64,000 bases of DNA from assembly GCF_001438695.1 (NCBI RefSeq), contig NZ_JQBH01000001.1:3248-67247 (forward strand). The letters are read 5' to 3'. Numbering within the stretch: the first letter of the stretch is position 1; each line of letters starts with the position of its first letter. The translations under genes and the position numbers were made by a program. Positions 1-43,989 of this stretch are shown here, piece after piece. The notes beneath the pieces are model-generated. The model was not told the DNA's origin, did no database searches, and saw only the letters and a list, made by a program, of their open reading frames with translations. The stretch is from Fructobacillus fructosus KCTC 3544. Lineage in GTDB: Bacteria; Bacillota; Bacilli; Lactobacillales; Lactobacillaceae.

Positions 1-1
1 C

Positions 2-313
2 GTGAAAACGGCGAACATGATCAGCCTTCCTTTTGCAGATAAAAAGTATGACTATGTCGTATCAAGTTTAGCCTTCCACAATATAAAGCCGGCTTCCGCA
101 AGAGTACATGCACTAGAAGAAGCTGTACGTGTTCTTACTGACAATGGTTCTCTAATCATTGTAGACACTGGCCATCACAAAAAAGAATACACAGACGCGC
201 TCTCTAGCTTGGGGCTTGAAGTCATAGAAGCTAAAACATACGGTGTATCTGGATGGTGGACAGGTCCATGGATGCCCACCTATTCCATCATTGCAAAACG
301 AGACCATTCATAA
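2..313 (+). CDS. Class I SAM-dependent methyltransferase, C-terminal part (5' truncated by window edge)
   Basis: About 103 codons of the C-terminal half of a Rossmann-fold methyltransferase. The stretch LPFADKKYDYVVSSLAFHNI matches the post-II/motif IV region of the UbiE/Methyltransf_11 type (acidic-hydrophobic strand followed by the substrate loop), and a later VLTDNGSLIIVD matches the motif VI strand. The SAM-binding GxGxG loop is not in the window, so the gene begins upstream; the GTG at position 2 is only the first available start and is probably internal. A strong intrinsic terminator follows directly. Substrate unknown. It lies at the outer edge of the accessory region and may be either host or cargo. 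Confidence 0.7.
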   Translation: MKTANMISLPFADKKYDYVVSSLAFHNIKPASARVHALEEAVRVLTDNGSLIIVDTGHHKKEYTDALSSLGLEVIEAKTYGVSGWWTGPWMPTYSIIAKRDHS

Positions 314-324
314 ACTATGTAATT

Positions 325-356
325 AGCCTACTCAGACAAGTAGGCTTTTTATTTTT
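325..356 (+). terminator. Intrinsic terminator after methyltransferase
   Basis: An 8-bp perfect stem AGCCTACT/AGTAGGCT with a 6-nt loop is followed by a run of T (347-356). It ends the methyltransferase transcript. Confidence 0.85.
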
Positions 357-386
357 GGGATGTACTCAATTACTACAAAATACTAT

Positions 387-417
387 AAACCACTGCCCTA
401 TTTTGGGGATGTGGTTT
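387..417 (-). terminator. Hairpin downstream of the zinc-ribbon gene
   Basis: Arms AAACCAC (387-393) and GTGGTTT (411-417) enclose an inner CCC/GGGG pairing. It lies just past the stop codon of the minus-strand gene at 441-1031. The T-run is poor, so it may be a weak terminator or an mRNA-stabilising hairpin. Confidence 0.45.
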
Positions 418-440
418 GTAACTTTTTAGGTGTGACCTTG

Positions 441-1031
441 TTAATCTTTTTCATACACCTTTTTACCATGTACTCTTATTGCTTCCGACCATTGCGCTTT
501 AATGGCCTTGTCATGCGCTTCTCTTCTCTGCTGGTAGAGTTCGTATATATCAGCTAACTGCATACTTATACGGTCAATCTGCTCTAGCTTCCTAGCGTAT
601 GTAGCCCAGTGCATTCCCTTCGGCCGTTTTGGTGTAATGTACAGTCTATAAGCTAGATCACAGGCTAATAGATGGCCTAAGCCCACATAACTGTTATACA
701 AACCTGAGTCTAGATTGTTAATAAGATTTAGCTGTTTATCGTGTAATGCCATGATTTTATCGAACATGTTGCGTCTGGCCTTGTTATCTTGAGCAACATA
801 ATACAACCCCGCACATACTCGGCATATCACTGCCCGCCTTACTTGATACAATGCGCCTTTTCGCTTCTCACAGTAAGGACAAACAAACCAATACCGTACA
901 CCGCCATAATTAGGTTTAGTTGTTGCTAAAGCTATCTTGTGACCTTGCCATTTAACAAGATGAGCACGGGGATGTTTGCTAAAGTCTAGTTCCTTGATAT
1001 TTAGTTTTGGATAGCTTGTGACCTTTTGCAT
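441..1031 (-). CDS. Orphan zinc-ribbon protein of mobile-element type, function unknown
   Basis: A 196-residue basic protein. Two CxxC pairs near residues 51-54 (CPYC) and 71-74 (CRVC) lie either side of KRKGALYQVRRAVI and follow GGVRYWFV. This double-knuckle layout, GG-R-WF-CPxC ... CRxC-LxY, recurs in uncharacterised proteins carried by plasmids, phages and integrative elements; I do not know a function. The C-terminal half is helical and charged. The ATG start at 1031 has a modest AAGGG upstream. The promoter region carries a cluster of TTGCAAC repeats, the first of which touches the start codon, suggesting autoregulation or replication-linked control. Nucleic-acid binding is likely from the zinc ribbon but is inference. 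Confidence 0.7.
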   Translation of the reverse strand: MQKVTSYPKLNIKELDFSKHPRAHLVKWQGHKIALATTKPNYGGVRYWFVCPYCEKRKGALYQVRRAVICRVCAGLYYVAQDNKARRNMFDKIMALHDKQLNLINNLDSGLYNSYVGLGHLLACDLAYRLYITPKRPKGMHWATYARKLEQIDRISMQLADIYELYQQRREAHDKAIKAQWSEAIRVHGKKVYEKD

Positions 1032-1185
1032 TGCAACCCTTAATTTATGTCTAAATCAATAAGCAAATTTTGCAACCTTGTTGCACACTTTTTAAAACTC
1101 TTTAGTCTACTATCGTTATTATATCAACCGTTATAAGCTTGCAACCCTGTAACTTTTAGGGTGCAACCTTTTGCAACGTTGCAAC
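1031..1185. repeat. Cluster of six TTGCAAC(C) repeats upstream of the zinc-ribbon gene
   Basis: Copies of TTGCAAC or a one-base variant start at 1031, 1070, 1139, 1161 (GTGCAACC), 1171 and 1179, all in the same orientation; a shortened copy (TTGCACA) lies at 1081. The last two overlap as a perfect 14-bp palindrome TTGCAACGTTGCAA (1171-1184). An ACCCT/AGGGT hairpin (1144-1162) sits among them. Position between a minus-strand start codon and the gene-free DNA fits an operator array or iterons. Confidence 0.7.
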
Positions 1186-1264
1186 ACTATTTAAGTGCGT
1201 TCTTGATCGTATAGGCATAGGTTTTAACAGGTTTTCATATTAGGTTTTGTTAGGTTCATCAGCA

Positions 1265-1300
1265 CAAAAATAGCCCTACTCGTTTGAGTAAGGCTTTTCT
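1265..1300 (-). terminator. Bidirectional intrinsic terminator after the small ORF
   Basis: AGCC-TACTC and GAGTA-GGCT arms with a 4-nt loop, one mismatch, a T-run on the minus side (ATTTTT) and TTTTCTTATT on the plus side. It ends the minus-strand small ORF at 1300-1560. Confidence 0.7.
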
Positions 1301-1560
1301 TATTCATACACTTTAAACATGTCATCATAACTAATGGCTAGCGTATATGTCTTTTTAGAACATACTTTAAATCCTAATTGTTTCATTTTCTACCAATTCT
1401 TAAAGCGCTTTACACCCTCATCAGATTTAGCAAAGCTAGCCTTAATCTTAGCTACATTTTTTTCTTGTTCAACCTGTGTAGGGTGGAAGATCTTACGGTA
1501 CTGTTCAGCTTGTGCCTTGTTATCTAAATCAAAAACAACATGCTTGTTATCAATAATCAT
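1300..1560 (-). pseudogene. Small ORF interrupted by an in-frame amber codon
   Basis: An ATG at 1560 follows a near-ideal Shine-Dalgarno (AAGGGGGG, 5 nt gap). It opens a 56-codon frame beginning MIIDNKHVVFDLDNKAQAEQ and ending RFKNW at a TAG (1390-1392). The same frame then continues without a further stop for 29 codons (KMKQLGFKVCSKKTYTLAIS...), ending at TAA (1300-1302) just before a terminator. Either the gene encodes a 56-residue protein, or a nonsense mutation has split an 86-residue one, or the amber is read through. Composition is lysine-rich and soluble. No family recognised. The strong ribosome site shows that at least the first part is or was translated. Confidence 0.6.
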
Positions 1561-1690
1561 AGCAACCCCCCTTATACGTTACTGTTGCCAGAAACAAAGT
1601 AAAGGTATAAAAAACATCGTTCCTACACCTATCTATAAATAAATAATACAAGGAAGTCATACAAAATGTAAAGCTATTTTTTAATCGTTT

Positions 1691-1720
1691 TGACGTCTCT
1701 TGACGGTCAGTGACGGTCAA
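1691..1720. repeat. Three 10-bp tandem direct repeats
   Basis: TGACGTCTCT, TGACGGTCAG and TGACGGTCAA follow each other with exact 10-bp periodicity. Ten-base spacing places each copy on the same helical face, as in protein-binding arrays. Confidence 0.6.
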
Positions 1721-1820
1721 ATAAGCGTAAAAGATAAATTGGTATAGTCGCTATATAGTTAATCATTGCCCGCTATTCAAGGTGTAACCATCCCCGTTAC
1801 ATACTTGCTACTTTGTAACG

Positions 1821-1857
1821 TTGCCATTTTTGGCAATGCTTCCCCACTACTGGGGAA
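1821..1857. repeat. Hairpin pair H1/H2 of the CCA-N4-TGG family
   Basis: H1 is TTGCCA-TTTT-TGGCAA (1821-1836). H2 is TTCCCCA-CTAC-TGGGGAA (1840-1857). They are 3 bp apart. Stems differ in sequence but both are fully paired and share the CCA/TGG top. Confidence 0.75.
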
Positions 1858-1861
1858 CGGT

Positions 1862-1876
1862 CTAAGTTCAACTTAG
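1862..1876. repeat. Inverted repeat CTAAGTT/AACTTAG
   Basis: A 7-bp perfect dyad around one central base. It directly follows hairpin H2. A second dyad CCTAGAT/ATCTAGG lies at 1908-1924. Confidence 0.6.
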
Positions 1877-1981
1877 GGCATCACGTTTCATTATTCCCCT
1901 ATGTCGTCCTAGATTTAATCTAGGTCGTTGAGCTGTCAGCAATATGCAGACACCTTTAATCTTTTTGAGGATGTTTAGCGT

Positions 1982-2001
1982 TTCTGCCACTTCTGGCAAA
2001 A
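1982..2001. repeat. Hairpin H3 of the CCA-N4-TGG family
   Basis: TGCCA-CTTC-TGGCA with flanking TT/AA pairs beyond one mismatch. Confidence 0.65.
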
Positions 2002-2158
2002 AGTAAAGGGGTTGTGTCTTGCCACCTCTTCCAATCTATGCAACGCCTGTTGTTTAACTGTTATCTGTACCGACTCTACCTCGGTTCAGGTTCGAACACT
2101 TTAGAAAAAATACAAGTGTAGTTGCAACTAATGTTGTCAAAGGGGTGTCTATTTTGGA

Positions 2159-2193
2159 CACTCCTTTTTGTTTTCGCCACTTTTGGCAAAGGA
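2159..2193. repeat. Hairpin H4 nested in a larger inverted repeat
   Basis: GCCA-CTTT-TGGC (2176-2187) sits inside perfect outer arms ACTCCTTT and AAAGGAGT. The mismatch position below the core is the same as in H3. Confidence 0.65.
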
Positions 2194-2384
2194 GTCGGCA
2201 AATCACCGCCCCCCTATCTTGATTATTTAAGAGAGCATACACATATCGTCATCAAACAGACAGGCGCGGGTGTATGTTTTGTTTTTTATTATATCTACGC
2301 CCAATCATACTGCAGAAAATTAAAAAGCCTATACGGGCTTTATATGGCGTATTTATTTAAGTGATATAAATAAGGCTTGTGGAT

Positions 2385-2741
2385 CTAATACTGCTTCATC
2401 ATAATCAATTTACCGCCCTTGGCTCTTTCTGATAACTTGATCGACTTGGCCAACCTGTTCAGCTCGTTGTTGACCTCTTGTATCACGGCAGTAGGCGCTA
2501 CTATGTTGTAATACTCGCCAAAAGGTTTACGGTACTTGTAGTGGTCGTGTTGCATTTGTACGATTTCAGACGGTAGGGTGGCCACATACGGGTCAAGCGT
2601 CCGATGTATTTCTTCCCAAAAGTTACAGTTTTCTTCTGCAAAACGATTATTAAAGCCTGCCCGTTTTAATTGTTCGATGTTCTCCAACGTCCAACCATTG
2701 CAACCTGTAAAGTATTCTCGGAGTATTTCCCTTTTGTTCAT
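2385..2741 (-). CDS. Unknown 118-residue accessory protein
   Basis: The frame is open further upstream, but the ATG at 2741 is preceded by a strong GGGGGA ribosome site and lies about 30 bp after a TATAAT (2770-2775), so the protein starts MNKREILREYFTGCNGW. It contains NIEQLKRAGFNNRF, an NCNFWEEIHRTLDPYVATLP segment and a basic C-terminus ending KLIMMKQY. Helical, soluble, no signal peptide. I recognise no family; the short ordered protein and its company suggest an element-encoded function. There is no partner gene close by on the same strand. Confidence 0.6.
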   Translation of the reverse strand: MNKREILREYFTGCNGWTLENIEQLKRAGFNNRFAEENCNFWEEIHRTLDPYVATLPSEIVQMQHDHYKYRKPFGEYYNIVAPTAVIQEVNNELNRLAKSIKLSERAKGGKLIMMKQY

Positions 2742-2899
2742 GTCATCCCCCACAAAGACTTTTAAGACAATTATACAGGACTTACCTGACGCACTGATTC
2801 GGTGCACCAGCGTGTTTGAAAACACGGAGGTCAATAGGTGTGTGGATGTAACCACACCGCAAATATAACGGGTGTACTTTTAAGTACGCCTGTTGTTTG

Positions 2900-2953
2900 T
2901 TGTCCACTACTGGACAATTGGGGGATGATTCATTTTCTGCCACAACTGGCAGA
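2900..2953. repeat. Hairpin pair H5/H6 of the CCA-N4-TGG family
   Basis: H5 is TTGTCCA-CTAC-TGGACAA (2900-2917) and H6 is TCTGCCA-CAAC-TGGCAGA (2936-2953). Both have 7-bp perfect stems and 4-nt loops; H5 shares its loop exactly with H2 although the stems differ. Confidence 0.75.
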
Positions 2954-3039
2954 CTTTCTTGATTGTCTTTGTTAGATCCTAAAGTACCAAATCAGTACCG
3001 CAGATAAAGGCGTCAACTCCAATTCAGCGTATTTGTACT

Positions 3040-3135
3040 AAAAATGTGTTATTTTGCAAAATAAAAGACGGCACAAAGGCCGTCCTTGATAGCATCCCCG
3101 CTATAAAAAAATGTGTTAAAAATGTGTTATTTTGC
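3040..3135. repeat. Direct repeats AAAAATGTGTTA (possible integrase arm sites)
   Basis: The 18-mer AAAAATGTGTTATTTTGC occurs exactly at 3040-3057 and 3118-3135; the 12-mer AAAAATGTGTTA also occurs at 3107-3118, abutting the last copy. They lie 95-190 bp from the 3' end of the tRNA-Ser gene, where tyrosine-integrase arm-type sites would be expected. Confidence 0.6.
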
Positions 3136-3162
3136 TTGCAATCTATAGCAATTCATAGCAAC

Positions 3163-3212
3163 CCTAAAAAACAAAAAGAGGTCAAGACCAGGCTTTTTGA
3201 GCCCTCTTGACC
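3163..3212 (-). terminator. Terminator of tRNA-Ser (and typA read-through)
   Basis: A 10-bp perfect outer stem (GAGGTCAAGA/TCTTGACCTC) with inner GGCT/AGCC pairing, followed on the minus strand by TTTTTGTTTTTT. It starts 18 nt past the tRNA 3' end. Confidence 0.85.
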
Positions 3213-3230
3213 TCTCTTGAAATGTCTCAA

Positions 3231-3319
3231 GGAGATAGCGGGATTTGAACCCGCACACCGCCATACGACGGCTCGACGGATTTCGAGTCCGCTGCAGTAC
3301 CAGATTGTGCCATATCTCC
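3231..3319 (-). tRNA. tRNA-Ser(CGA)
   Basis: Class II tRNA with acceptor stem GGAGATA/TATCTCC, D stem GCA/TGC, anticodon loop CTCGAAA (anticodon CGA, codon UCG), a long variable arm and T arm GCGGG-TTCAAAT-CCCGC. CCA is not encoded. The base after the acceptor stem is T, whereas bacterial tRNA-Ser usually has G73. The 3' end faces the accessory region. Confidence 0.93.
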
Positions 3320-3335
3320 ATAAGTCCGCCCTAGA

Positions 3336-3365
3336 ATTTTACCATAAGTAAAAGCGGGCAGACAA
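3336..3365 (-). promoter_or_regulatory. Promoter of tRNA-Ser
   Basis: On the minus strand TTGTCT (-35), 18 bp, TAAAAT (-10), placed about 17 bp before the tRNA 5' end and inside the typA-tRNA gap. Confidence 0.6.
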
Positions 3366-3378
3366 GGTTTAAATTTAA

Positions 3379-5220
3379 TTACTTATTCTTGCGCTTAGCA
3401 GCCTTTTCACGCTCACCAGTGTTCAAGATAGCCTTACGGATACGAACGTTTTCTGGCGTTACTTCAACGTATTCATCGTCGTTCAAGAATTCCAGAGAAG
3501 CTTCCAAGTTCATTTCGCGTGGCGTCTTGATTGAAGCCGTTTGATCCTTGTTCGATGAACGAACGTTAGACTGTGGCTTCATCTTCGTAACGTTAACTGA
3601 GATATCGTTATCACGGGCGTTCATACCCACAACCATACCTTCATACACGTCAACACCAGCACCGACGAACATTTGACCACGGTCTTCCACACCCATGATG
3701 GCGTAGTTGGTAGTTTGTCCCTGGTTGATTGAAACCAAGGCACCGTTACGACGACCTGGCGCCCAGTTCTTAACCATTGGACGGTATTCTGCATAAGTGT
3801 GGTTGTAGATTCCATAACCGTGCGTTGCCGTCATGAATTCCGTTGAATAACCAATCAAACCACGTGATGGGGCCATATAAGTCAAACGAGTCTGGCCGTT
3901 CCCAACGGATTCCATGTTTTGCATTTCACCCTTACGTTGGTTCAAAGAGTCAATAACTGATGAAGCATATTCATCAGGTGTATCGATTTGAACGGATTCG
4001 TATGGTTCAGACTTCACACCATCGATGTCACGGAAGATAACCTGTGGACGTGAAGCTTGCAATTCGAAGCCTTCACGACGCATGTTTTCAATCAAGATTG
4101 ACAAGTGCAATTCACCACGACCAGAAACAAGCCATGTTCCAGCAGTTGGCATGTCTTCAACACGCAATGACACATCCGTGTGCAATTCGCGGTGCAAACG
4201 ATCTTCAATTTGACGAGCCGTCACGAACTTTCCTTCACGACCAGCAAAGGGGCTGTCGTTTTGACGGAAAGTCATTTGCAACGTTGGTTCATCAATACGA
4301 AGCAAAGGCAATGCTTCAGGATGAGCAGGATCAACAACCGTTTCACCAACGTTGATGTCTTCCATACCAGAAACGGCAATCAAGTCACCGGCCTTGGCTT
4401 CTTGGATGTCAACCTGGTCCAAACCAATGAAACCAGCCAACTTCGTAACACGGAAGTCCTGTGTCGTACCGTCCAACTTCATAACGGTCACGTTGTCACC
4501 AACTTTGATGGTTCCACGCTTAACACGTCCGATACCGATACGACCAACGAAGTCGTTGTAATCCAACATGGCCACTTGGAACTGCAAAGGTTCGTCTGAG
4601 TTGTCAACGGGAGCAGGAATCGTTTCGAAGACCGTATCAAAGATTGGCTTCATTGTGTGTTCTTGCGTGTCAACTTCTGGATCCAATGACGTTGTTCCGT
4701 TCATGGCAGAAGCAAAGATAACTGGGAAGTCCAAGTCATCTTCGTCAGCACCCAATTCGATGAACAAGTCCAACACTTCGTCCACAACTTCTGAAGGACG
4801 GGCACCAGGACGGTCCACCTTGTTCACGATAACGATTGGCGTCAAGTGTTGTTCGAAGGCCTTCTTCAAAACGAAACGAGTCTGTGGCATCGTTCCTTCA
4901 AAGGCGTCGACAACCAAGAGAACACCGTCAACCATTCCCATGATACGTTCAACTTCTCCACCAAAGTCGGCGTGACCTGGGGTGTCCAAAATGTTAATTT
5001 GCTTGTCGCCGACACGGACAGCCGTGTTCTTTGACAGGATCGTGATTCCACGTTCCTTTTCAATGTCGTTCGTGTCCATGGCACGGTCGCCCAAGGATGC
5101 TTCCTTACGGGCGTCCATAGTGTCGGACTGCTTCAACAATTCGTTCACCAACGTCGTCTTTCCGTGATCGACGTGGGCGATGATAGCGATGTTACGAATA
5201 TCTTCGCGAAGTTTTGCCAA
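3379..5220 (-). CDS. typA: Ribosome-associated translational GTPase TypA/BipA
   Basis: A 613-residue protein, normal for the family. The N-terminal GTPase domain shows AHVDHGKTT (15-23), the DTPGHADF switch and NKVD specificity motif; domains II, III and V and the BipA-type C-terminal domain follow. TypA binds the ribosome and supports 50S assembly and growth under cold or stress. The start is TTG at 5220, supported by AAAGGAG 10 nt upstream; no ATG fits. It follows the suhB-like gene and precedes tRNA-Ser in the same direction, the gene order seen in other lactic acid bacteria for the yktA-suhB-typA part. Confidence 0.97.
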   Translation of the reverse strand: MAKLREDIRNIAIIAHVDHGKTTLVNELLKQSDTMDARKEASLGDRAMDTNDIEKERGITILSKNTAVRVGDKQINILDTPGHADFGGEVERIMGMVDGVLLVVDAFEGTMPQTRFVLKKAFEQHLTPIVIVNKVDRPGARPSEVVDEVLDLFIELGADEDDLDFPVIFASAMNGTTSLDPEVDTQEHTMKPIFDTVFETIPAPVDNSDEPLQFQVAMLDYNDFVGRIGIGRVKRGTIKVGDNVTVMKLDGTTQDFRVTKLAGFIGLDQVDIQEAKAGDLIAVSGMEDINVGETVVDPAHPEALPLLRIDEPTLQMTFRQNDSPFAGREGKFVTARQIEDRLHRELHTDVSLRVEDMPTAGTWLVSGRGELHLSILIENMRREGFELQASRPQVIFRDIDGVKSEPYESVQIDTPDEYASSVIDSLNQRKGEMQNMESVGNGQTRLTYMAPSRGLIGYSTEFMTATHGYGIYNHTYAEYRPMVKNWAPGRRNGALVSINQGQTTNYAIMGVEDRGQMFVGAGVDVYEGMVVGMNARDNDISVNVTKMKPQSNVRSSNKDQTASIKTPREMNLEASLEFLNDDEYVEVTPENVRIRKAILNTGEREKAAKRKNK

Positions 5221-5254
5221 TTTCTTGTGCTCCTTTTACTTAGCTACTCACAAG

Positions 5255-5283
5255 AAAGACTAGGAGGAAGTCCCCTAGTCTTT
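5255..5283 (-). terminator. Hairpin between suhB-like gene and typA
   Basis: A 10-bp perfect stem AAAGACTAGG/CCTAGTCTTT overlapping the suhB-like stop codon, with only a short T-run (TTTCTTG), so partial read-through into typA is likely. Confidence 0.65.
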
Positions 5284-6078
5284 TGCCATCTTGCTGATTT
5301 CGCGATGAATCTCGTTTGTAGCGATTAATACTGAGTTTGATAATAGCATATTTGGAAGGCTTCCGTCAAGGTTTTTTACTTGATAACCCAACCCTTCTGC
5401 CAGTGCGCGACCCGCTGCTAAATCCCAGGGAGATAGTTTCGATAAATAAGCCTGCGCTGAACCAGTAAATAGTCTGGTAAAGGAAATGCCGGCGGAACCG
5501 ATAACACGCACGGCACGAGCCTGTAAAGCCATTTCACCATAGGGCTTCTCCCCCACAACCAATCGCCTCCCTGAAACGATGACAACGGCATCCCTCAGTG
5601 ATTGGTTTTTCACCACTGGCAGTTCCTGACTATCCATGTAGACACCCGTTTGCTTGCCCCCGTGAAAAAGTCGGCCAGCCGGGACATCACAAATCCACCC
5701 TAGAACCGGTTCCCCATCCTGATATAAAGCCATCATGATGGCGTAGTCACGGTCCTCCAAAACAAAGTTCAAAGTCCCGTCAATTGGATCGATGAACCAG
5801 ACCTGCCCGGCCATCGTGGTTGCCCGTCGTTCACCAGCCTCTTCACAGACGAAGCGAGCCTCGGGATCCAGGCTTTGAACCTTCTCAATCAAAACTCGTT
5901 GATTGGCCCGGTCCAAGTCCGTCACTAGGTTTCTCCGGTCGCCATTTTTATACGAAACATCCGGTGCCTGTCTTTGCCGTTCTTCCTTCGTTTGCTGGGC
6001 CAAACGTTTCATCCAGGAAGACACCTGTTCATCCAATTTGATTAATTGGTTTTTATCACTTAACTTAATCACGGACAA
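5275..6078 (-). CDS. suhB: Inositol monophosphatase family protein
   Basis: A 267-residue Mg-dependent phosphatase of the inositol monophosphatase/SuhB/CysQ fold. It has EEAGER (metal ligand glutamate), FIDPIDGTLNFV (the DPIDGT metal motif) and the late SPWDLAAG motif, in family order. Likely substrates are inositol phosphate-like or nucleotide phosphates; the true substrate in lactic acid bacteria is unclear. Its TTG start lies within the last codons of the upstream UPF0223 gene (14-bp overlap), so the two are translationally coupled. Symbol is by family only. Confidence 0.85.
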   Translation of the reverse strand: MSVIKLSDKNQLIKLDEQVSSWMKRLAQQTKEERQRQAPDVSYKNGDRRNLVTDLDRANQRVLIEKVQSLDPEARFVCEEAGERRATTMAGQVWFIDPIDGTLNFVLEDRDYAIMMALYQDGEPVLGWICDVPAGRLFHGGKQTGVYMDSQELPVVKNQSLRDAVVIVSGRRLVVGEKPYGEMALQARAVRVIGSAGISFTRLFTGSAQAYLSKLSPWDLAAGRALAEGLGYQVKNLDGSLPNMLLSNSVLIATNEIHREISKMAKD

Positions 6079-9475: not shown

Positions 9476-11332
9476 TTACTTCTTGTCGTCATCGTTGACT
9501 TCTTCGAAGTCACCGTCAACCGTGTTGTCATCCTTTGCTTGTCCTTGACCAGCTTCTTGGCCAGCAGCACCACCTTGTGCTTGTTGTGCCTGTTGGTAAA
9601 GCTTTGCAGCCAATTCTTGTGCAACCTTTGACAAGGCATCAGACTTGTCCTTCAAATCTGTTAAGTCGGCGTTTTCGTCCTTGGCATCTTCTTTGGCCTT
9701 CTTCAAGGCTTCCAAAGCCTCCTTTGTTGGCTTTGTGTCTTCTTCAGACAACTTGTCGCCAACTTCTTCCAAAGTCTTTTCCGTCTGGAAAATCAATTGA
9801 TCCGCGTTGTTGCGCGTTTCGACAGCTTCCTTCTTCTTGTTGTCGGCTTCTTCGTTTGCCTTGGCGTCGTTCATCATCTTTTCGATTTCTTCGTCAGACA
9901 AACCACCGGCAGCTTGGATGGTGATTTTTTGTTCCTTCTGAGTACCAAGGTCCTTAGCAGAAACGTTGACGATACCGTTACGGTCAATATCGAAGGTCAC
10001 TTCGATCTGAGGAACACCACGTGGGGCTGCAGGAATGTCAGCCAACTGGAAGCGTCCCAAGGTCTTGTTGTCGGCAGCCATTGAACGCTCACCTTGCAAG
10101 ACGTGGATATCAACTGCTGGTTGATTATCAGCGGCCGTTGAGAAGACCTGTGACTTTGACGTAGGGATCGTCGTGTTACGGTCGATCAACTTCGTGAAGA
10201 CACCACCCATCGTTTCGATACCAAGTGACAATGGCGTAACATCCAAGAGGACAACGTCTTTAACGTCACCAGTAATCACACCACCTTGAACAGCGGCACC
10301 AAGGGCAACGGCTTCATCAGGGTTGATTGAGTGGTTAGGTTCCTTACCGGTCAACTTCTTAACTGATTCTTGAACAGCTGGGATACGAGTTGAACCACCG
10401 TTCAAGATAACTTCATCGATGTCATTAAATGACAAGCCAGCATCCTTCAAGGCGTTCAAGACAGGTTGTTCCGCCTTCTTAACCAAGTCAGCCGTCAATT
10501 CGTTGAACTTTGCACGAGTCAAAGACGTTTGCAAGTGCAAAGGTCCTTGATCACCAGAAGCGATAAATGGCAAGTCAATTTGTGCTTCCGTTGCAGAAGA
10601 CAAGGTCTTCTTAGCAGCTTCGGCAGCATCCTTCAAACGTTGCAAGGCCAACTTATCTTGCTTTAAATCAATGCCGTTTTCCTTCTTAAATTCGTCAGCC
10701 AAGTAGTCGATAATCTTTTCATCAAAGTTATCACCACCAAGGTGCGTGTCACCGTTCGTTGACAAAACTTCGAAGACCCCGTCACCCAATTCGAGGACAG
10801 AAACATCAAAGGTTCCACCACCCAAATCGTAAACAAGAATCTTTTCATCCTTGTCCAACTTGTCCAAACCATAAGCCAAAGCAGCGGCCGTTGGCTCGTT
10901 GATGATACGTTCTACCTTCAATCCGGCAATCTTACCAGCATCCTTGGTTGCTTGACGCTGGGCATCGTTAAAGTAAGCAGGTACCGTGATAACGGCCTGA
11001 TTGACTTTTTCACCTAAGTAATCTTCGGCATAGCCCTTGATGTATTGCAAAATCATGGCTGAGATTTCTTGTGGCGTGTATTCCTTGTCGCCAACCTTAA
11101 CTTTGTAACCAGCCTCACCCATGTGTGACTTGATTGATGAAATCGTGTCCGGGTTCGTGATGGCCTGACGCTTGGCCACGTCACCAACTTGGGTTTCCCC
11201 GTTCTTAAATGAGACAACAGAAGGTGTTGTCCGACCACCATCAGGGTTGGTGATAATCTTTGGCTTACCACCTTCCAAAACAGCAACAGCAGAGTTCGTC
11301 GTTCCTAAATCAATTCCAATAATCTTTGACAT
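9476..11332 (-). CDS. dnaK: Molecular chaperone DnaK (Hsp70)
   Basis: A 618-residue Hsp70. The ATPase domain begins [13 protein letters not shown] and includes [14 protein letters not shown] and [12 protein letters not shown]; the substrate-binding domain starts after [14 protein letters not shown]. The C-terminal tail is Gln/Gly/Ala-rich and acidic (ends EEVNDDDKK). It refolds proteins with DnaJ and GrpE. It lies 98 bp after grpE and 87 bp before dnaJ; AAAGGAG precedes its ATG. Regulation is expected through HrcA/CIRCE sites upstream of hrcA. Confidence 0.99.
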
Positions 11333-11430: not shown

Positions 11431-12009
11431 TTACTGAGCAACCGCTACCATGGCCGGACGAATCACCCGATCATGAAGCATGTAGCCCTTTTGCAGAACA
11501 GAAGCAACCTGGTCGGCCTTCAACTCACCTTCCGCGGGCACCGTTTGAACACCCTGCATCGTCTGTGGGTCAAAGTCGTCGCCAACCTGGCCAACTTCAA
11601 CAATCCCGTTTTCAGTTAGGGCCGCCTTCAAAGTCTTCAGGGTAATTTGAACACCCTTGTGGACCTGGGCGACTTTTTCGTCGTCGCCTGCATCAACAGC
11701 CAAGGCACGCTCTAAGTTATCAACGACCGGTAAAATGGCAGTTGCCAATTTCTGGCCATCGTACTTGCGAACGTTGGCCATCTCACGGGCGTTACGCGTC
11801 TGAATGTTTTGAATCTCAGCTTGCGCACGAAGTAAGGCATCGTCTTTGTCAGCCAACTGCTTCTTTAACTCGTCAAGCGGATTCGTTTCATCTTCCTGCT
11901 TTGAGTCATCTTGAACCTTTTCTGGATTTTCACCAGCGAAATCCTGAGCCTTTTCCTCTTCAAGGATTTCTTGTTCATCGATTTGCTGTTCTTGATCTTT
12001 CTTGGCCAC
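11431..12009 (-). CDS. grpE: Nucleotide exchange factor GrpE
   Basis: A 192-residue protein with an acidic N-terminus, a long coiled-coil region (about residues 40-90) and the C-terminal beta domain containing VGDDFDPQTMQGVQTVPAE and VLQKGYMLHDRVIRPAMV, the GrpE signature. Drives ADP release from DnaK. GTG start with AAAAGGAGG upstream. It begins 12 nt after the hrcA stop, indicating cotranscription. Confidence 0.97.
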   Translation of the reverse strand: MAKKDQEQQIDEQEILEEEKAQDFAGENPEKVQDDSKQEDETNPLDELKKQLADKDDALLRAQAEIQNIQTRNAREMANVRKYDGQKLATAILPVVDNLERALAVDAGDDEKVAQVHKGVQITLKTLKAALTENGIVEVGQVGDDFDPQTMQGVQTVPAEGELKADQVASVLQKGYMLHDRVIRPAMVAVAQ

Positions 12010-36512: not shown

Positions 36513-39203
36513 TTACTTTGCTTCGTACCAAGTTGGTCCTGAATGTGATTCCACCTTCAGCGGGATAGCCAACTTAACGGCTGAATCCATGACTTTTGTC
36601 ACGGTATCACGTAGCTCGTCTAGTTCGCTTTCAGGGCATTCGAAGACGAGTTCATCATGCACCTGAACGAGCATATTAGCCGCCATTCCCTTCGCCTCAA
36701 TGGCCTGGCTAACTTTAATCATCGCAATTTTGATAATATCAGCAGCCGACCCCTGGATGGGCGAATTCATGGCTGTTCGTTCAGCAAAAGAGCGGGTATT
36801 GAAATTCTTAGCATTGATGTCTGGCAGATAGCGACGACGGTGCTCAATCGTTTCAACAAAACCGTCCTTGTGAGCTCTTTCCTTGATTTGTCCCATCCAT
36901 TGATGAATACGCGGAAACTCCCTGAAGTAAGTTTCAATGAAAGACTTGGCCTCCTTACGGGGAATGTTCAAATTCTTGGAAAGACCATAATCCGAAATTC
37001 CATAGACAATTCCAAAGTTGACCGCCTTAGCTGTCCGTCGCTGATCTGGATCAATTGGCGCATCCTCTGGTAGCCCAAAGACTTTACGTGCCGTTTCGGC
37101 GTGAATGTCTTCATCTTCAACGAAGGCGTGTTCCATGGCCGGATCACCGGTAATGGAAGCCAGTACACGGAGCTCAATTTGGGAATAGTCAGCCCCAAAA
37201 ATTTGCCAGCCATCGTGTGATGGAACAAAGGCGTGACGAATCTTTCGACCAGCCTCTGTTCGCATGGGGATGTTTTGGAGGTTTGGATCCACGGAAGAAA
37301 GTCGGCCAGTCTGCGTCAATGTCTGCAAGAAACGCGTGTGGACTTTTTGATCTGCTGGATTAACAACGGACAACAAGCCATCGACATAGGTGGACTTTAA
37401 CTTAGCCAATTGACGATAAGCCAAAATATGTTCAACAATTGGTGCTTCTGGGGCCAACTTCTCAAGAACTTCAACCGCAGTCGAATAACCGGTCTTGGTT
37501 TTCTTAATAACCGGCAAACCCATTTTTTCAAAAAGTAACGTACCAAGTTGTTTCGTTGAATTAATGTTGAACTCTTCACCAGCCATTTGGTAAATTTCTT
37601 GCTTTAGAGAAGCAATCTGCTCGTCCATTTCCTGGCCCATCTTCTCTAAACGGGCTTCGTTCACCTTAAATCCTTGAGCTTCCATCTTTGCTAAAACAAA
37701 GGAAAGAGGTAATTCAATGTCGCGATATAGATGACTCTGCTCGTGCTCATCCAAGTCTGAAAAGGCTTGGTCACGCAAACCAAAAATTGTTTCGGCTTTG
37801 TGCCCAACGTGGTCAATCAAGACTTTTTCTTCTTCGGGAACGGTAAATTTAGCTCCCTTACCATAAACTTCCTCATCAGAAGCCAAGTAACGTCCAAAAC
37901 GTCCGGCCAAAGTTGACAAAACATTATCATTACCAACCGTGTCTAACAAATAGGCTACCAACAAGAAATCAAAATCAACAGCCCCTAACGTCAGTCCTAA
38001 TCGATGCAAAAGTACCCAGTGTTCCTTCGCATTAAAGACCCGTAACTTTGTTTGACTCCCTTCAACAATTTGCCGTAACAAATCATTATCAAAGAAGGTA
38101 AAGTCGCGGGAACCATAGTAGCCAACTTCGTCATTCCCAATAGAAAAAGCGAGCATATCAGCTTGATGATAATTTTCGCCAGACGTTTCAATGTGAAAGG
38201 CTAGGTAATCTTCCTTAACTAACCGTTCCAGCGCGGCTTTTGACAAAGGATGGACTGTTTGAAAGTCGCCTTGTTTTTTTTCGGATTCTTCGGCAATTTG
38301 ACCAACATCGTCAAAAAGTGTGTGGGCGCGTAACTTATTTAGTGCCTGCTTAAAGTGCAACTTTTCAAAAAGGTTAACCAATCCCTTTTCCTCAGGACCA
38401 TTGTAAGTAATGTCTTTTAATCCAATGGACAACTTAGCATCCGTAATGATGGTCGCCAACTTCTGTGCCCGATAGGCCTGTTCCTTATCGTTAATTAGGT
38501 TTTCCTTCATTTTGGAAGGTTTCATCTCATCAACATGGGCATAGAGATTATCCAAATCGTGGTACTGTTTCAATAACTTCAGCGCAGTTTTTTCACCGAC
38601 CTTGGTTACCCCCGGGTAGTTATCCGATGTATCCCCAGTTAATGCTTTTTTATCAATGATTTGTTCGGGTGTAATTCCAAACTCGTTCATAATAAAATCA
38701 GGCGTGTAAACCTCGACTTGGCTAACCCCTTTCTTGGTTAGCTTAACCGTCACATCATCCGTCACTAACTGAGTCAAATCCTGATCACCAGTAATGATAA
38801 TGACTTGATCCCCGGCTGCCTGCCCAATCCGCGAAAGCGTTCCAATGATGTCATCAGCCTCTAGACCAACTTGTTCATAGTTGTGGAGACCGTGGACCTC
38901 CACCATCTCACGGAGGTACGGAAACTGTTCCTTAAACTCGGCCGGAGCCTTATCGCGACCGGCTTTGTAATCAGCATACAAGTCCCCACGAAAAGTCTCT
39001 CGACCTGATCGAGCATCCCAAGCCACTAACCCCATATCGGGTTGCATGGGCAAAACAATCGACTCCAAGAAGTTATTGAAGGCAACGAGGGCGTTTGTAT
39101 GCAGGCCCTCCGGTGTTACCATTCGGTCGAGCTGCTGGTACATCGCATAAAAGGCACGAAAAGCCAACGAATTACCGTCAATTAGTAGAATTTTTTTACT
39201 CAT
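36513..39203 (-). CDS. polA: DNA polymerase I
   Basis: An 896-residue enzyme for Okazaki fragment processing and repair. The 5'-3' exonuclease domain (LLIDGNSLAFRAFYAM, GDTSDNYPG) and polymerase domain (GADYSQIELRVLA, RRTAKAVNFGIVYG, LVQVHDELVFE) are intact. In the middle, the 3'-5' exonuclease motif I reads FHIETSG where proofreading enzymes have FDxET, so proofreading is predicted lost, as in many Firmicutes. Monocistronic. Confidence 0.97.
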   Translation of the reverse strand: MSKKILLIDGNSLAFRAFYAMYQQLDRMVTPEGLHTNALVAFNNFLESIVLPMQPDMGLVAWDARSGRETFRGDLYADYKAGRDKAPAEFKEQFPYLREMVEVHGLHNYEQVGLEADDIIGTLSRIGQAAGDQVIIITGDQDLTQLVTDDVTVKLTKKGVSQVEVYTPDFIMNEFGITPEQIIDKKALTGDTSDNYPGVTKVGEKTALKLLKQYHDLDNLYAHVDEMKPSKMKENLINDKEQAYRAQKLATIITDAKLSIGLKDITYNGPEEKGLVNLFEKLHFKQALNKLRAHTLFDDVGQIAEESEKKQGDFQTVHPLSKAALERLVKEDYLAFHIETSGENYHQADMLAFSIGNDEVGYYGSRDFTFFDNDLLRQIVEGSQTKLRVFNAKEHWVLLHRLGLTLGAVDFDFLLVAYLLDTVGNDNVLSTLAGRFGRYLASDEEVYGKGAKFTVPEEEKVLIDHVGHKAETIFGLRDQAFSDLDEHEQSHLYRDIELPLSFVLAKMEAQGFKVNEARLEKMGQEMDEQIASLKQEIYQMAGEEFNINSTKQLGTLLFEKMGLPVIKKTKTGYSTAVEVLEKLAPEAPIVEHILAYRQLAKLKSTYVDGLLSVVNPADQKVHTRFLQTLTQTGRLSSVDPNLQNIPMRTEAGRKIRHAFVPSHDGWQIFGADYSQIELRVLASITGDPAMEHAFVEDEDIHAETARKVFGLPEDAPIDPDQRRTAKAVNFGIVYGISDYGLSKNLNIPRKEAKSFIETYFREFPRIHQWMGQIKERAHKDGFVETIEHRRRYLPDINAKNFNTRSFAERTAMNSPIQGSAADIIKIAMIKVSQAIEAKGMAANMLVQVHDELVFECPESELDELRDTVTKVMDSAVKLAIPLKVESHSGPTWYEAK

Positions 39204-39238
39204 TTTGCTCCCCTTGTTTCATCTTCTTGTAGTTTAGC

Positions 39239-39266
39239 ATAAAAAAAGCTCGCCGAAGCGAGCGTC
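39239..39266 (-). terminator. Terminator of the Bax-inhibitor-1 family gene
   Basis: On the minus strand GCTCGC-TTCG-GCGAGC (a UUCG tetraloop) followed by T7. Confidence 0.9.
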
Positions 39267-39279
39267 TTTTGTATTCAAC

Positions 39280-40005
39280 TTAATCTCTTTGGTTGCCAAA
39301 AAGCTGCAGCAATGAATAGAAGATGTTAATGAAGTCCAGATAGAGCATCAAGGCACCAATAACAGCCATTCCAGTCAATTGAGCATCACCTGCTCCCTGT
39401 CCAGCCATTTGTTCGTAATTCTGACGCAACATGTTGTTATCGTATGCCGTGTACAAGGCAAAGATAATCACAGAAGCAAACGACACCAGCATCTGGAAAC
39501 CGGTTGAACCCATAAAGATGTTGATGATGGATGCAACAACCAATCCAATCAACAATCCAAACAAGATGGGACCCATGCCAGCTAAGGACTTCTTAGTAAA
39601 GAAACCGTAGGCTGCCATTCCGGCAAACAGAGCGGCCGTCGAACCAAAGGCTGCTAAAACAGATGCCTGCGTATAGTAGGCCAGCAAAATGCCAAGTGTC
39701 AATCCCTGCGCAACCGCAAAGGCCATTAACAAACCAAAGGCTTTTGAAGGATTATTTCGCAACGAAGCCCCACGAATCATCGCAACCAAAACCAATTCAA
39801 CGGCTACAACGGCGATAGTCCCAATCCATGAACCAGCAAAAAGCGACACAACCTGTGGCAAGAAGAAGTTCTGAACCACAAAGCCAGAAACGGCGGTAAC
39901 CGCTAATGCAATTGCCATAAAGCCGTATACTCGTTGAAAGAAAAGCTTCATCCCATTATCAGCACCCGTCACATCGCGACGTGTGTTGAAATCAAAGTTA
40001 TTCAT
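39280..40005 (-). CDS. Bax inhibitor-1/YccA family membrane protein
   Basis: A 241-residue protein with seven predicted membrane helices and conserved YGFMAIALAVTAVSG, YTQASVLAAFGSTAALF and ALYTAYDNNMLRQ (the family D near the C-terminus). Homologs are proton-sensitive calcium leak channels (B. subtilis YetJ) or FtsH modulators (YccA). Start ATG 40005 with AGGAGGT 6 nt upstream. Monocistronic. Confidence 0.93.
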   Translation of the reverse strand: MNNFDFNTRRDVTGADNGMKLFFQRVYGFMAIALAVTAVSGFVVQNFFLPQVVSLFAGSWIGTIAVVAVELVLVAMIRGASLRNNPSKAFGLLMAFAVAQGLTLGILLAYYTQASVLAAFGSTAALFAGMAAYGFFTKKSLAGMGPILFGLLIGLVVASIINIFMGSTGFQMLVSFASVIIFALYTAYDNNMLRQNYEQMAGQGAGDAQLTGMAVIGALMLYLDFINIFYSLLQLFGNQRD

Positions 40006-40078
40006 TTCATACCTCCTATAAATACTTAAAATCAATTTTAAATATTATAACCTAGACACGTTAATTTAACATTAAAAA

Positions 40079-41413
40079 TTATGAACGGTCCGGTTGAATC
40101 TGCCCGAGTAGTTTTTCAAAAGCAAATTCATACTTTTCGATATCCCCTGCCCCCATAAAGACAAAGACGGCGTCATCATGTGCCAACAGTGGTGATAAGT
40201 TATCTTCTGAGATAATCGTTGCCCCACCTGGAATTTCCTTCGCAATATCTTCAGCTGAAACGGTCCCACTGGCTTCACGGGCGGAGCCAAAAATTGGGGT
40301 TAGATAAACCGTATCAGCCTTTGAAAGAGCCTTAGCGAACTCATCCTTATAGGCAATCACTCGGGTAAAGGTATGTGGCTGGAAAACCGCCACGATTTCT
40401 TTATCGGGATGTTCCTGTCGGGCAGCGTCAAGTGTTGCCTTAATCTCAGTTGGATGATGGGCATAGTCATCAATGATAGTGGCCGCCCCGACTTTTCTTT
40501 CTGAGAACCGACGCTTCACTCCTGGGTACGTCTTCAAATGTTCACGAACACCATCCAAATCGAGTCCTTCTAAGTAAGCAACCGCAATAACAGCCGTCGC
40601 GTTAAAGATATTGTGTTGTCCAAAGATGGGAATAAAGAAACGTCCCAAATCCTGACCACGGAAGGAAACGGAAAAAGTGGAGCCGTTCGTCTCCTTATCA
40701 ACGTCTTGGATTAAGAAGTCATCACGACCTGAAACATCACCGTAGTAATAGAGTGGCACGTCCACTGAAAGTTTCTGCAATGATGGGTCGTCACCCCAGG
40801 CAACAATCCCCTTCTTAACGCCCTTCGCAAAGTCTTCAAATGCAGAAAAGACATCCTCTAAATTCTTGTAGTAATCAGGATGATCGAAATCGATGTTCGT
40901 CAAAATTGCATAGTCAGGGTGGTATGGCTTGAAGTGACGACGATACTCATCGGCTTCCAGAACAAAGAATTCGGAGTTTTCAACACCGTGTCCCGTACCA
41001 TCCCCAATTAGATATGAAGTCCGTGCCACATTCTTCATAACGTGGGCCAGCATACCTGTTGTCGATGTTTTTCCGTGTGCACCGGCAACCGCAATTGTCG
41101 TTGCCTGCGCAATTTGTTCCGCCACGGCCTCAGGGAAGGTTATCATTTTGACACCAGCATCAAGTGCCGCTTTCACTTCAACCTGATCATCTTCGAAAGC
41201 GTTGCCTCGAACGAAAGTGTAGTCCCGATACTTCTCAATGTTTTTTGCATCAAAAGGTAAAATCGTGATTCCGGCCTTTTCAAGGGGGGCCTGCGTATAA
41301 GTGAACTGACTAATATCAGAACCCACAACCTCATTTCCTTGGTCGTGTAAAATCTGAGCCAATGGCCCCATACCCGTGCCTTTAATTCCGATGAAATAAT
41401 ATTTCTTTGACAT
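40079..41413 (-). CDS. murC: UDP-N-acetylmuramate--L-alanine ligase
   Basis: A 444-residue ATP-dependent Mur ligase adding the first L-Ala of the peptidoglycan stem. N-terminal Rossmann GIKGTGMGPLAQIL, central P-loop AGAHGKTSTTGML, and C-terminal DDYAHHPTEI are present. Cytoplasmic. Follows the ytpR-like gene by 11 nt in a six-gene run. Confidence 0.97.
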   Translation of the reverse strand: MSKKYYFIGIKGTGMGPLAQILHDQGNEVVGSDISQFTYTQAPLEKAGITILPFDAKNIEKYRDYTFVRGNAFEDDQVEVKAALDAGVKMITFPEAVAEQIAQATTIAVAGAHGKTSTTGMLAHVMKNVARTSYLIGDGTGHGVENSEFFVLEADEYRRHFKPYHPDYAILTNIDFDHPDYYKNLEDVFSAFEDFAKGVKKGIVAWGDDPSLQKLSVDVPLYYYGDVSGRDDFLIQDVDKETNGSTFSVSFRGQDLGRFFIPIFGQHNIFNATAVIAVAYLEGLDLDGVREHLKTYPGVKRRFSERKVGAATIIDDYAHHPTEIKATLDAARQEHPDKEIVAVFQPHTFTRVIAYKDEFAKALSKADTVYLTPIFGSAREASGTVSAEDIAKEIPGGATIISEDNLSPLLAHDDAVFVFMGAGDIEKYEFAFEKLLGQIQPDRS

Positions 41414-41424
41414 AGTCTCTCTTT

Positions 41425-42084
41425 TTAATAATTCGTATCAATCCGACCGTCTTTATAGAGGTCTTTCGCCTGATCAAAGTCGAATACCTCGCCAATTGAA
41501 CCAAAATCATCCGGTAGGACCAAAGCACCTGGTTTATCAGGAGCCCCTGCCAACTGTAGTTCACGACCGGAAACAATCATACCGGCAGATGGAACACCGC
41601 GCAACGCACCAGGCCAGATAATTTCACCGGAAGGCATCATTGCTCCTGGTTGAGCAACCACCACCTTAATGCCGGTTGCCATGTTTGGTGAACCGGAAAC
41701 AATCTGTAAGCGATCATTTTCCCCAACATCCACTTTGGTAACATGTAAATGGTCGGAATCAGGATGTTCTGTCATCTCTTCAACAACGCCAATCACCAAC
41801 TTTGAAGGATCAGTGTTAATTTTGAAATCGATGCCAACCTTTGCCAATTCTTGATTGATTAAGTCAACCTGTTTTTCCGTCAAAAATACTTGACCGGCCT
41901 TATTGGTCGACAAGCCCAATTCCTGAGCTAAATTAGCGAGATTAATGGCAACGACATCCCCGTTTTCAGGGTTTTTTACCACCGTTACGTTTCCCTTTGT
42001 GTCCACTTCTTGATGTCCAGTTGATGGTGCAAAAGTCAACATCAACACATCACCCGTCGCGGCGGGATTAAAGACTGCAATCAT
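41425..42084 (-). CDS. ytpR: YtpR family tRNA-binding domain protein
   Basis: A 219-residue protein: N-terminal DUF4479-type domain (GDVLMLTFAPSTGHQEVDTKGNVTVV) and C-terminal EMAP/OB tRNA-binding domain (VIGVVEEMTEHPDSDHLHVTKVDVG, QIVSGSPNM, IWPGALRGVPSAGMIVSGREL). It resembles the N-terminal piece of PheT. Binding to RNA is likely; role unknown. It is 28 nt after mtnN and precedes murC. Confidence 0.93.
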   Translation of the reverse strand: MIAVFNPAATGDVLMLTFAPSTGHQEVDTKGNVTVVKNPENGDVVAINLANLAQELGLSTNKAGQVFLTEKQVDLINQELAKVGIDFKINTDPSKLVIGVVEEMTEHPDSDHLHVTKVDVGENDRLQIVSGSPNMATGIKVVVAQPGAMMPSGEIIWPGALRGVPSAGMIVSGRELQLAGAPDKPGALVLPDDFGSIGEVFDFDQAKDLYKDGRIDTNY

Positions 42085-42112
42085 GAATCAATTCCCTTTC
42101 CAATAAGTATAC

Positions 42113-42790
42113 TTATTCATTTATTGTATCAAGATAAGCTAATAAGAGTTCAGCTGACTTTTGGCCGGCCTGCACAACGTACTCATCGAAGTCGATGTTC
42201 GATTCACCGTCTGCCTGATCCGACACCCCACGTAAGACAATAAATGGCTTTTTAAAGCGTGTTGCCACTTGGGCAACCGCCGCTCCTTCCATTTCAGCTA
42301 ATTGAGCGTCCGTAAAGTTTTGTAAAATCTTTTCCTTCATCGACTGTTGAACAAACGTGTCCCCAGTAACAATCAGTCCTTTTTTGACATCAGTTAATTT
42401 TTCGAATGCCGAAACGAGGGAAGAATCAGCTTGAAAACGAGCAGGTTGAGCTGGGAGTTGACCATAATCATAGCCAAAAGCCGTCACATCGGCATCAAAA
42501 TAAGCCAACTCACTACCAATCACCAAATCACCAATCGAAAGTCCCTCTTGGAGAGCACCAGCTGATCCAGTATTAATCACGAGGTCGACATCGAAAACCT
42601 GAGTCAGAATGGTTGTCGCAGTGGCTGCGGCCACTTTACCGATACCTGATTCAGCCAAAAAAACATCCTGGCCATTGTATTGGCCAATTAAAACTTCCAA
42701 ATCAGAAAAGGCAACGGTTTCCGCATCCTTTAAGGCCGCAGTCAGGGCCTTCTTTTCTTCGGCCATCGGCGTAATAATTCCAATTTTCAT
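42113..42790 (-). CDS. mtnN: 5'-methylthioadenosine/S-adenosylhomocysteine nucleosidase
   Basis: A 225-residue nucleosidase: MKIGIITPMAEEKKAL, INTGSAGAL, and ALEM-like AEMEGAAVAQVATRF followed by LRGVSDQAD with the catalytic Asp. Recycles the by-products of SAM-dependent methylation and polyamine synthesis; also supplies S-ribosylhomocysteine if LuxS is present. Preceded by GGAGGCTGTT. Confidence 0.96.
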   Translation of the reverse strand: MKIGIITPMAEEKKALTAALKDAETVAFSDLEVLIGQYNGQDVFLAESGIGKVAAATATTILTQVFDVDLVINTGSAGALQEGLSIGDLVIGSELAYFDADVTAFGYDYGQLPAQPARFQADSSLVSAFEKLTDVKKGLIVTGDTFVQQSMKEKILQNFTDAQLAEMEGAAVAQVATRFKKPFIVLRGVSDQADGESNIDFDEYVVQAGQKSAELLLAYLDTINE

Positions 42791-42799
42791 AACAGCCTC

Positions 42800-43664: not shown

Positions 43665-43666
43665 GC

Positions 43667-43882: not shown

Positions 43883-43888
43883 ACCTCT

Positions 43889-43897
43889 ATTATAGCA
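43889..43897 (-). promoter_or_regulatory. Extended -10 promoter abutting the csp start codon
   Basis: On the minus strand TGCTATAAT, an extended -10, ends 6 nt before the ATG, so a transcript from it would start at or next to the start codon. Confidence 0.55.
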
Positions 43898-43940
43898 AAA
43901 ATTGGACTAGACTAGGTGAATTTGCTTGGAACCTTTTGAC

Positions 43941-43975: not shown

Positions 43976-43989
43976 AAGGAAATACTGAG

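Follow-up and report, generated by a model that had tools for sequence, protein, structure and literature searches.

Hairpins in a gene-poor stretch of a Fructobacillus phage satellite correspond to sites within the antirepressor genes of many phages

What keeps six short hairpins, alike at the top and different in the lower stem, in the same small stretch of DNA beside a bacterial tRNA gene? The window analysed here, 64,000 nt in all, corresponds to bases 3248–67247 of contig C1 in a Fructobacillus draft genome of 1.48 Mb. An initial annotation, made from the letters alone, had pointed to six sites sharing CCA-N4-TGG between 1821 and 2953, with stems said to change on both sides at once, and had proposed that a fold was being kept for a structure-specific binder of single-stranded DNA or RNA; a palindromic operator was offered as the alternative. 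Here, we report that the region is almost certainly an array of 'ant boxes', segments of 18–34 bp, mostly palindromes, which correspond to sites within the antirepressor (ant) genes of many phages (Table 1).

Results

All six CCA-N4-TGG sites are present with the loops first described, and the hairpins are real and far beyond chance. Perfect stems measure 6 bp at 1821–1836, 7 bp at 1840–1857, 2900–2917 and 2936–2953, 5 bp at 1985–1998 and 4 bp at the site at 2177; the lower stem, said to stay paired throughout, does so fully in four of the six, and the two remaining sites (1983–2000 and 2173–2190) each have one mismatch. A stem of at least 5 bp is found in five of the six CCA-N4-TGG sites of 1771–2960, compared with no such site in 19,575 of 20,000 first-order Markov nulls, one in 422 and two in 3. 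The remaining window (3331–64000) contains 21 CCA-N4-TGG sites, one of which reaches a stem of 5 bp and none of which reaches 6. Counted without regard to the motif, perfect stems of at least 6 bp number 11 in 1771–3229, compared with 1.6 for nulls and 2.6 for core DNA of the same length. Equal density in core regions had been named as one observation that would refute the initial reading; core density is near zero, and dispersal over the core genome of the REP/BIME type is not seen. The region was also called gene-free, but a conserved ORF of 117 aa sits between the two groups of sites and gene-poor is the better description.

A covariance-model search of relatives, one of the checks first proposed, recovered sites from satellites of the genus and from some prophages, while matches in core genes were single; the strong matches that we examined lie in satellites or prophages. 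Across 201 genomes of the family, including the source genome, 38 have a match at E <=0.02, and five or more matches occur in four genomes of the same genus (18, 11, 5 and 5), two of g6 (5 and 6) and one of g11 (5). In G107, of genus g11, five weak matches, four of equal score, perhaps reflect a repeated element. Several sites are kept at the same places in homologous elements, each place with its own arms, as the initial reading requires. Its claim of covariation likewise stands: the arms change together with the palindrome retained, both among 19 satellite sites, selected as clear hairpins, and among the 20 distinct ant boxes described below. The sites match no Rfam family and no described family was found among the papers listed in literature searches, in agreement with the first impression.

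Table 1 Annotated features of the satellite end in the window
Feature	Position	Strand	Remark
PICI-like phage satellite, integrated, right end	1..3229	.	homologous elements in relatives at tRNA-Ser, tmRNA and tRNA-Glu
Zinc-ribbon-like ORF, 196 aa, satellite gene	441..1031	-	not needed for sites: G126 has no match yet has sites
56-aa ORF	1390..1560	-	likely remnant of a two-gene module; longer form in G006
Ant box, BRO-N type A, TTGCCATTTTTGGCAA	1821..1836	+	same place conserved in satellites
Ant box, BRO-N type A, TTCCCCACTACTGGGGAA	1840..1857	+	arms equal those of Lactococcus ant genes
Ant box, BRO-N 'DERSKFNLG' type	1855..1877	+	23/23 identity to BRO-N gene in L214, another lineage
7-bp hairpin CCTAGATTTAATCTAGG	1908..1924	+	
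Ant box, BRO-N type A, one C.A mismatch	1983..2000	+	perfect in homologous elements
Probable ant box, BRO-N 'KGVSVLDTPGG' type	2142..2164	+	by eye 20/23 letters against L213 hairpin
Ant box, BRO-N type A, one C.A mismatch	2173..2190	+	
117-aa conserved satellite ORF, between both site groups	2385..2738	-	six loci in five Fructobacillus genomes
Ant box, AntA type, GTGTGGATGTAACCACAC	2835..2863	+	28/29 identity to AntA gene of G126
Ant box, AntA-like, GTACTTTTAAGTAC	2865..2893	-	89.7% match, antisense, within antirepressor gene of Streptococcus phage Javan407
Ant box, BRO-N type A, TTGTCCACTACTGGACAA	2900..2917	+	same sequence at eight satellite loci, counting the window
Ant box, BRO-N type A, TCTGCCACAACTGGCAGA	2936..2953	+	identical to site in BRO-N gene L212
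Ant box, BRO-N 'KYQISTAGQLR' type, third lineage	2979..3003	+	22/22 to L273 (2982–3003); 96% to Staphylococcus phi575 antirepressor
Conserved satellite end beside tRNA, att-side repeats	3166..3220	.	matched in six homologous ends; also aligned
tRNA-Ser(CGA), integration target	3230..3319	-	3' end faces satellite; borders complete F. papyrifericola element too

The left part of the satellite precedes the window on the same contig, which begins within a Rha-like gene, and this copy is truncated leftward by the contig end; HTH and CI-like repressor ORFs, named by reading the sequences, lie directly left of the window. A complete relative in F. papyrifericola sits at the same tRNA. Its order begins with an integrase, a helicase, PrimPol and small regulators and goes on with Rha, CI and the zinc ribbon; a first group of sites, a type I restriction cargo, the 117-aa gene and further sites then lead up to the tRNA. 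Domain names were assigned with Pfam for the G126 element only, and by reading sequences for the other elements and the restriction cargo. Integration at a tRNA end is seen in the window itself, and relatives supply both an integrase and a replication module of PrimPol and a D5-type helicase (G126 by Pfam, G212 by similarity). No capsid or tail genes were recognised on reading the listed ORFs of the G126 and G212 elements, and the element is therefore called a PICI-like satellite. A search for PrimPol in viral contigs found none, and the 117-aa ORF matches no Pfam family above cut-off. The zinc-ribbon gene had been suggested as a partner of the sites, but G126 carries sites without it, which rules it out as a necessary one.

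Several neighbouring features were noted along the way. A methyltransferase passenger gene at window 2–313 (its start lies before the window and it is partly masked) is shared with a second satellite on contig C2, and TGACG(G/T) repeats at 1690–1720 and 3166–3220, similar in relatives, are possible integrase arm or replication repeats. In the F. papyrifericola satellite, the apparent type I restriction-modification cargo, so named from its sequence, occupies L135:3179-8981, with one group of boxes on either side. The source genome has a second satellite-like element, L177 (G000:C44), with terminase-, portal- and capsid-like genes by reading; its type-A boxes lie within the portal-like gene (one) and after the capsid-like gene (two), and it also has an AntA-type box (coordinates 2114–2133, 9480–9497 and 11944–11987). 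The record of the LLC-1 'phage' (L248, KJ608189) seems to include, at 38389–50000, a second module that resembles a satellite and has an integrase of its own as well as a PrimPol-like gene.

Outside satellites, the strongest model matches include BRO-N ant genes of prophages in the source genome. Within such genes the palindrome TTnnCCA-N4-TGGnnAA, its arms differing but paired, occupies the same codons in Fructobacillus prophages and in phages of Leuconostoc, Lactobacillus, Lactococcus, Brochothrix and Staphylococcus. Each of the ten phages retrieved for comparison (Leuconostoc LLC-1; Lactobacillus LL-H, JCL1032, Ld25A and Ldl1; Lactococcus 63301, bIL309 and CHPC836; Brochothrix NF5; Staphylococcus 187) has a palindrome of 7–9 bp with a 4-nt loop between the codons for YVRWxRVNxYL and those for KGDFI. 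The form RW..VN.YL...KGDFI is found in 26 of 79 distinct BRO-N genes, and in 23 of the 26 the site forms a perfect stem of 7 bp or more, the exceptions being L259 (no stem), L256 (broken gene) and L211 (6 bp). When synonymous codons were shuffled, 60 times for each gene, the observed stem was reached at most once in 21 of the 26. By comparison, BRO-N genes of other form have a stem of at least 7 bp in 3 of 53 cases, and many lack a significant hairpin.

From 23 genes with the box, found as perfect stems, we drew a set of 20 distinct type-A ant boxes; this set does not include L208 (6-nt loop), L256 (broken) and L259 (none). All 120 cells of its inner six pairs are Watson-Crick, while the arms vary at pairs 4–6, with GC 11, TA 5 and CG 4 at pair 4 and CG 11, TA 5 and GC 4 at pair 5. 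The site is retained while the encoded amino acids differ (SATSGR, LSTSGQ, NSPEVGK, YLSQEVGK), and the same box occurs in genes with ORF6C and with ANT C-terminal domains. In one BRO-N ant gene (L212:695-758) the box and its codons, about 45 nt, are tandemly duplicated. A structure model of BRO-N has a mean pLDDT of 57 and is confident over the N-terminal domain only; in this prediction the box codons would map to a loop devoid of secondary structure, at low confidence outside that domain. The model has no significant fold match in the PDB, and a comparison by sequence found no solved relative. Among AntA genes, a hairpin exceeds the codon-shuffle control in only 3 of the 21 loci tested (of 30; 9 in which no ORF was found were left out). 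Hairpins of 10–12 bp lie within or near the ORF6N genes L351, L355, L356 and L360, where strand handling was poor, and suggest a further antirepressor family with boxes.

The window region matches several ant families, and at a site within the ant genes; we therefore regard it as an array of antirepressor-gene sites and not as a free-standing family of hairpins. Across 22 satellite-type loci, 71 type-A sites pair at 6 or more of 7 positions, and 55 of these use arms seen in ant genes while 16 do not. Other array segments match other BRO-N lineages and AntA genes. For an enrichment test, the targets were restricted to ant loci recovered through protein or HMM searches; the 12,366 nt of 11 array stretches then contained 28 separate matching segments (2.26/kb), of about nine kinds by our own grouping and not independent events, given that related satellites share segments. 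The controls gave 2 in 37,500 nt of core (0.05/kb), 3 in 37,007 nt of gene-rich satellite DNA (0.08/kb) and 0–2 per replicate in 20 Markov replicates. Loci L314–L320, fetched for matching arrays, were excluded as targets; a separate comparison that included them returned 71 matches, an overstatement. The type-A segments are not fully independent evidence because the first BRO-N query gene was picked via the hairpin model, whereas the other BRO-N and the AntA segments are independent. The gaps of bIL310 and the Javan satellites (see below) entered the test after one segment had matched, and their further segments were unchosen.

In the window, the 1855–1877 box includes the hairpin CTAAGTTCAACTTAG at 1862–1876, and its region shares 93% identity across 29 nt with an anti-repressor gene of phage record PP754928; the 2900–2917 box has the same arms as ant genes L235, L206, L260 and L209. 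The match of the 2936–2953 box to a type-A gene spans 2935–2953. The probable box at 2142–2164 did not come up in the BLAST comparisons of array against ant genes. Pfam places BRO-N, AntA, ANT or ORF6C domains in L178, L179, L185, L213, L214, L273 and L346, and the Javan407 antirepressor was labelled AntA-like by reading its translation. Homologous segments occur in both orientations, between satellites as well as within the window, and stem deviations in satellite sites are about equally G-T (13) and C-A (11) among 532 cells, a count that takes in chance sites. We also observed, in 7 of 14 satellite stretches, a segment of 26–31 nt that in Lactobacillus phage Sha1 lies directly upstream of terS, likely a packaging (cos-like) site (L320:1001-1029, L042:6262-6291, L043:7435-7462, L045:7552-7579 and L135:2968-2995). 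In the EFB-N1 satellite, L047:8733-8761 has its match within terS, both in Anoxybacillus phage A403 and in a Latilactobacillus phage, and is possibly pac-like.

Against the phage collection at E up to 10, the window array matched 37 records, 5 of them annotated as antirepressor, on three segments, and the other 32 unannotated, intergenic or in other genes. A core stretch of equal length matched 64 records, with no antirepressor annotation among the 60 matches listed. Among plasmids, the window array matched 4 records, none annotated as antirepressor, and an array piece of F. papyrifericola matched three, all in BRO-family genes. BLAST of 320–3229 against plasmids and phages at E 1e-5 returned no match. 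A pattern scan of viral contigs gave 0 matches for a single box and 41 stretches for a degenerate box, a number that we estimate to be at chance level.

A 106-nt array piece from the second satellite of the source genome was searched against 50,697 phage records and matched 40. Of these, 25 are annotated as antirepressor (22 Staphylococcus, 2 Lactococcus, 1 Pseudomonas), 7 come from intergenic DNA of the Streptococcus satellites Javan201, 203, 641, 643, 646 and 650 and of Lactococcus bIL310, and 8 are unannotated or in other genes. We take bIL310 to be a satellite; its record, of 15 kb, names no capsid or tail gene. In bIL310, Javan201 and Javan641, further BRO-N or AntA matches fall in the gene-free gaps, compared with 0, 1 and 0 in gene-rich controls of equal length. 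Stems of at least 7 bp number 2, 3 and 0 in these gaps against 0.4–0.7 expected, an excess so slight that the evidence there lies in the ant matches and not in the stems. A second array piece matched 121 phage records (89 Klebsiella, 23 Staphylococcus); among the 40 matches listed, most are an unrelated transcription inhibitor and none is from Staphylococcus. Ten loci of g16 and g7 had no ant match but one, which is A-rich, a weak comparison because the same test gave only 0 and 2 matches for two known Fructobacillus array loci.

Discussion

Palindromes that stay perfect while their letters change, that contain no inner G-U pair and that occur in either orientation fit a double-stranded site for a dimer whose specificity differs from phage to phage. 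Ant itself is the natural candidate for the binder, because the box goes with the N-terminal domain and is shared by genes with ORF6C and ANT C-terminal domains. Each box may thus be bound, as double-stranded DNA, by the N-terminal domain of its matching Ant in dimeric form, and we put the chance that the boxes are Ant binding sites, a role read from sequence, at one in two. In the phage, a box within its own ant gene could serve autoregulation or a nucleoprotein complex on ant. In the satellite, the boxes would bind Ant once any of several helper phages switches on, and the array could then act as a signal from helper to satellite or as a sink that weakens the helper's antirepressor. We consider these two roles about equally probable: satellites are known to sense their helpers, which fits a signal, and a sink would protect the lysogen. 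The wider proposal, that ant genes of Gram-positive phages carry the palindromic site of their own product and that satellites of several genera gather these boxes from unrelated phages into one gene-poor array, thereby tuning to many helpers at once or disarming them, is tentative, and we would place it a little below an even chance.

The palindromic operator comes nearer to this proposal than an RNA element does, although the drift of half-sites that it envisaged is between phages, each box corresponding to a different antirepressor gene. In nine phage and prophage sequences, box copies outside ant did not exceed shuffled half-sites and none lay near the cI-cro promoters; we accordingly rejected CI/Cro operators as an explanation, and the lack of a second site near cI-cro is unusual for a plain operator. 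Intrinsic terminators were set aside as well, the type-A stems having, by eye, no long T-run after them.

Array transcripts might instead form hairpins that mimic, or pair with, those of ant mRNA, titrating an RNA-binding protein or silencing Ant. The phage boxes do lie in coding sequence, several window segments are ant-sense, and P1 and N15 are known to control ant by antisense. Work on the latter appears by title among the references of PMC5944126. Two observations nonetheless lead us to disfavour any single-strand or RNA reading, including the fold recognised in single-stranded DNA or RNA that was first proposed: the inner six pairs of the 20 type-A boxes contain no G-U, and segment orientation varies between satellites and within the window. 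Rfam also offers no match besides tRNA and tmRNA (four loci, gathering score), and for window 1–6000 only sub-threshold matches besides the tRNA. We judge mimicry at the RNA level unlikely. A strand-specific RNA element, suggested at one point by the C.A mismatches, was dropped on the same two grounds and on a same-strand G.T in L180.

The boxes could also be crossover or recombinase sites that shuffle ant domains, with satellites exchanging DNA with their helpers. Domain shuffling of antirepressor genes is known, satellites differ by rearrangement of their array modules and a tandem copy occurs in one ant gene, but the matches are short (about 19–34 nt) and do not reach into flanking ant sequence, and a non-systematic look noticed no recombinase partner; this explanation strikes us as improbable. 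We give as small a chance to target sites for a nuclease or silencing factor, encoded by satellite, host or phage and directed against ant genes, with the array regulating the factor. In another satellite system a phage nuclease mimics origin-binding specificity (PMC8263062), but no nuclease gene common to the box-carrying elements was noticed among the ORFs read, again non-systematically. An origin of satellite replication or a packaging signal (iterons, a single-strand origin, cos/pac) would suit a region at the element end, and some satellites carry the Sha1 upstream-terS segment; that segment was not seen in the window's own stretch, and boxes that differ in sequence and match ant genes make this account very improbable. 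Template-switch correction can make the arms of a palindrome agree without selection, and neutral repeats in a gene-poor region might be perfected in this way. This mutational account is already disfavoured and has scant probability, given that the same site lies at the same codons across phages of several genera, is retained despite amino-acid change and is matched in separate ant families.

An array of antirepressor-gene sites has partial parallels among known systems. The lambda-type ori lies inside gene O, and there, too, a recognition site sits within the gene of its presumed binder and changes with that protein; the ant genes differ in holding one or two palindromes, and we claim no replication role for them. 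The L5 stoperators and the conserved inverted repeats of phiC31 are dispersed repressor sites, and like the boxes they are several short sites in non-coding phage DNA, but they are near-identical and serve one repressor, whereas the boxes differ and match ant genes of different phages. PICI/SaPI satellites resemble the present element in their int, repressor and replication genes, no capsid genes having been seen in the relatives read here. Their Stl repressor senses several unrelated helper proteins (PMC6695447), so that an integrated satellite responds to many helpers, as we propose here; Stl acts by protein–protein contact, unlike the many DNA sites matching antirepressor genes that are gathered here in cis. 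In prophage crosstalk, antirepressors act in trans on prophage repressors and couple the fates of several prophages in one cell (PMC3121763); the present case differs in that DNA sites lie on the satellite.

A conserved palindrome within antirepressor genes has a role that seems unreported in the literature that we searched: among the papers listed from open-access sources, titles and the starts of abstracts describe no such site, and subscription journals fell mostly outside this coverage, so that the result is no proof of novelty. Satellite arrays that collect such sites from many phage lineages are a second, linked and testable finding. If the reading of the boxes as sites for their own gene product is true, site and specificity evolve together, and the array is a DNA library of helper identities. 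Should Ant bind the boxes, this would show what BRO-N and AntA domains recognise, arrays could find use in food fermentation strains, either as decoys keeping prophages silent or as sensors that detect phage induction, and the helper range of a satellite could be read from its array.
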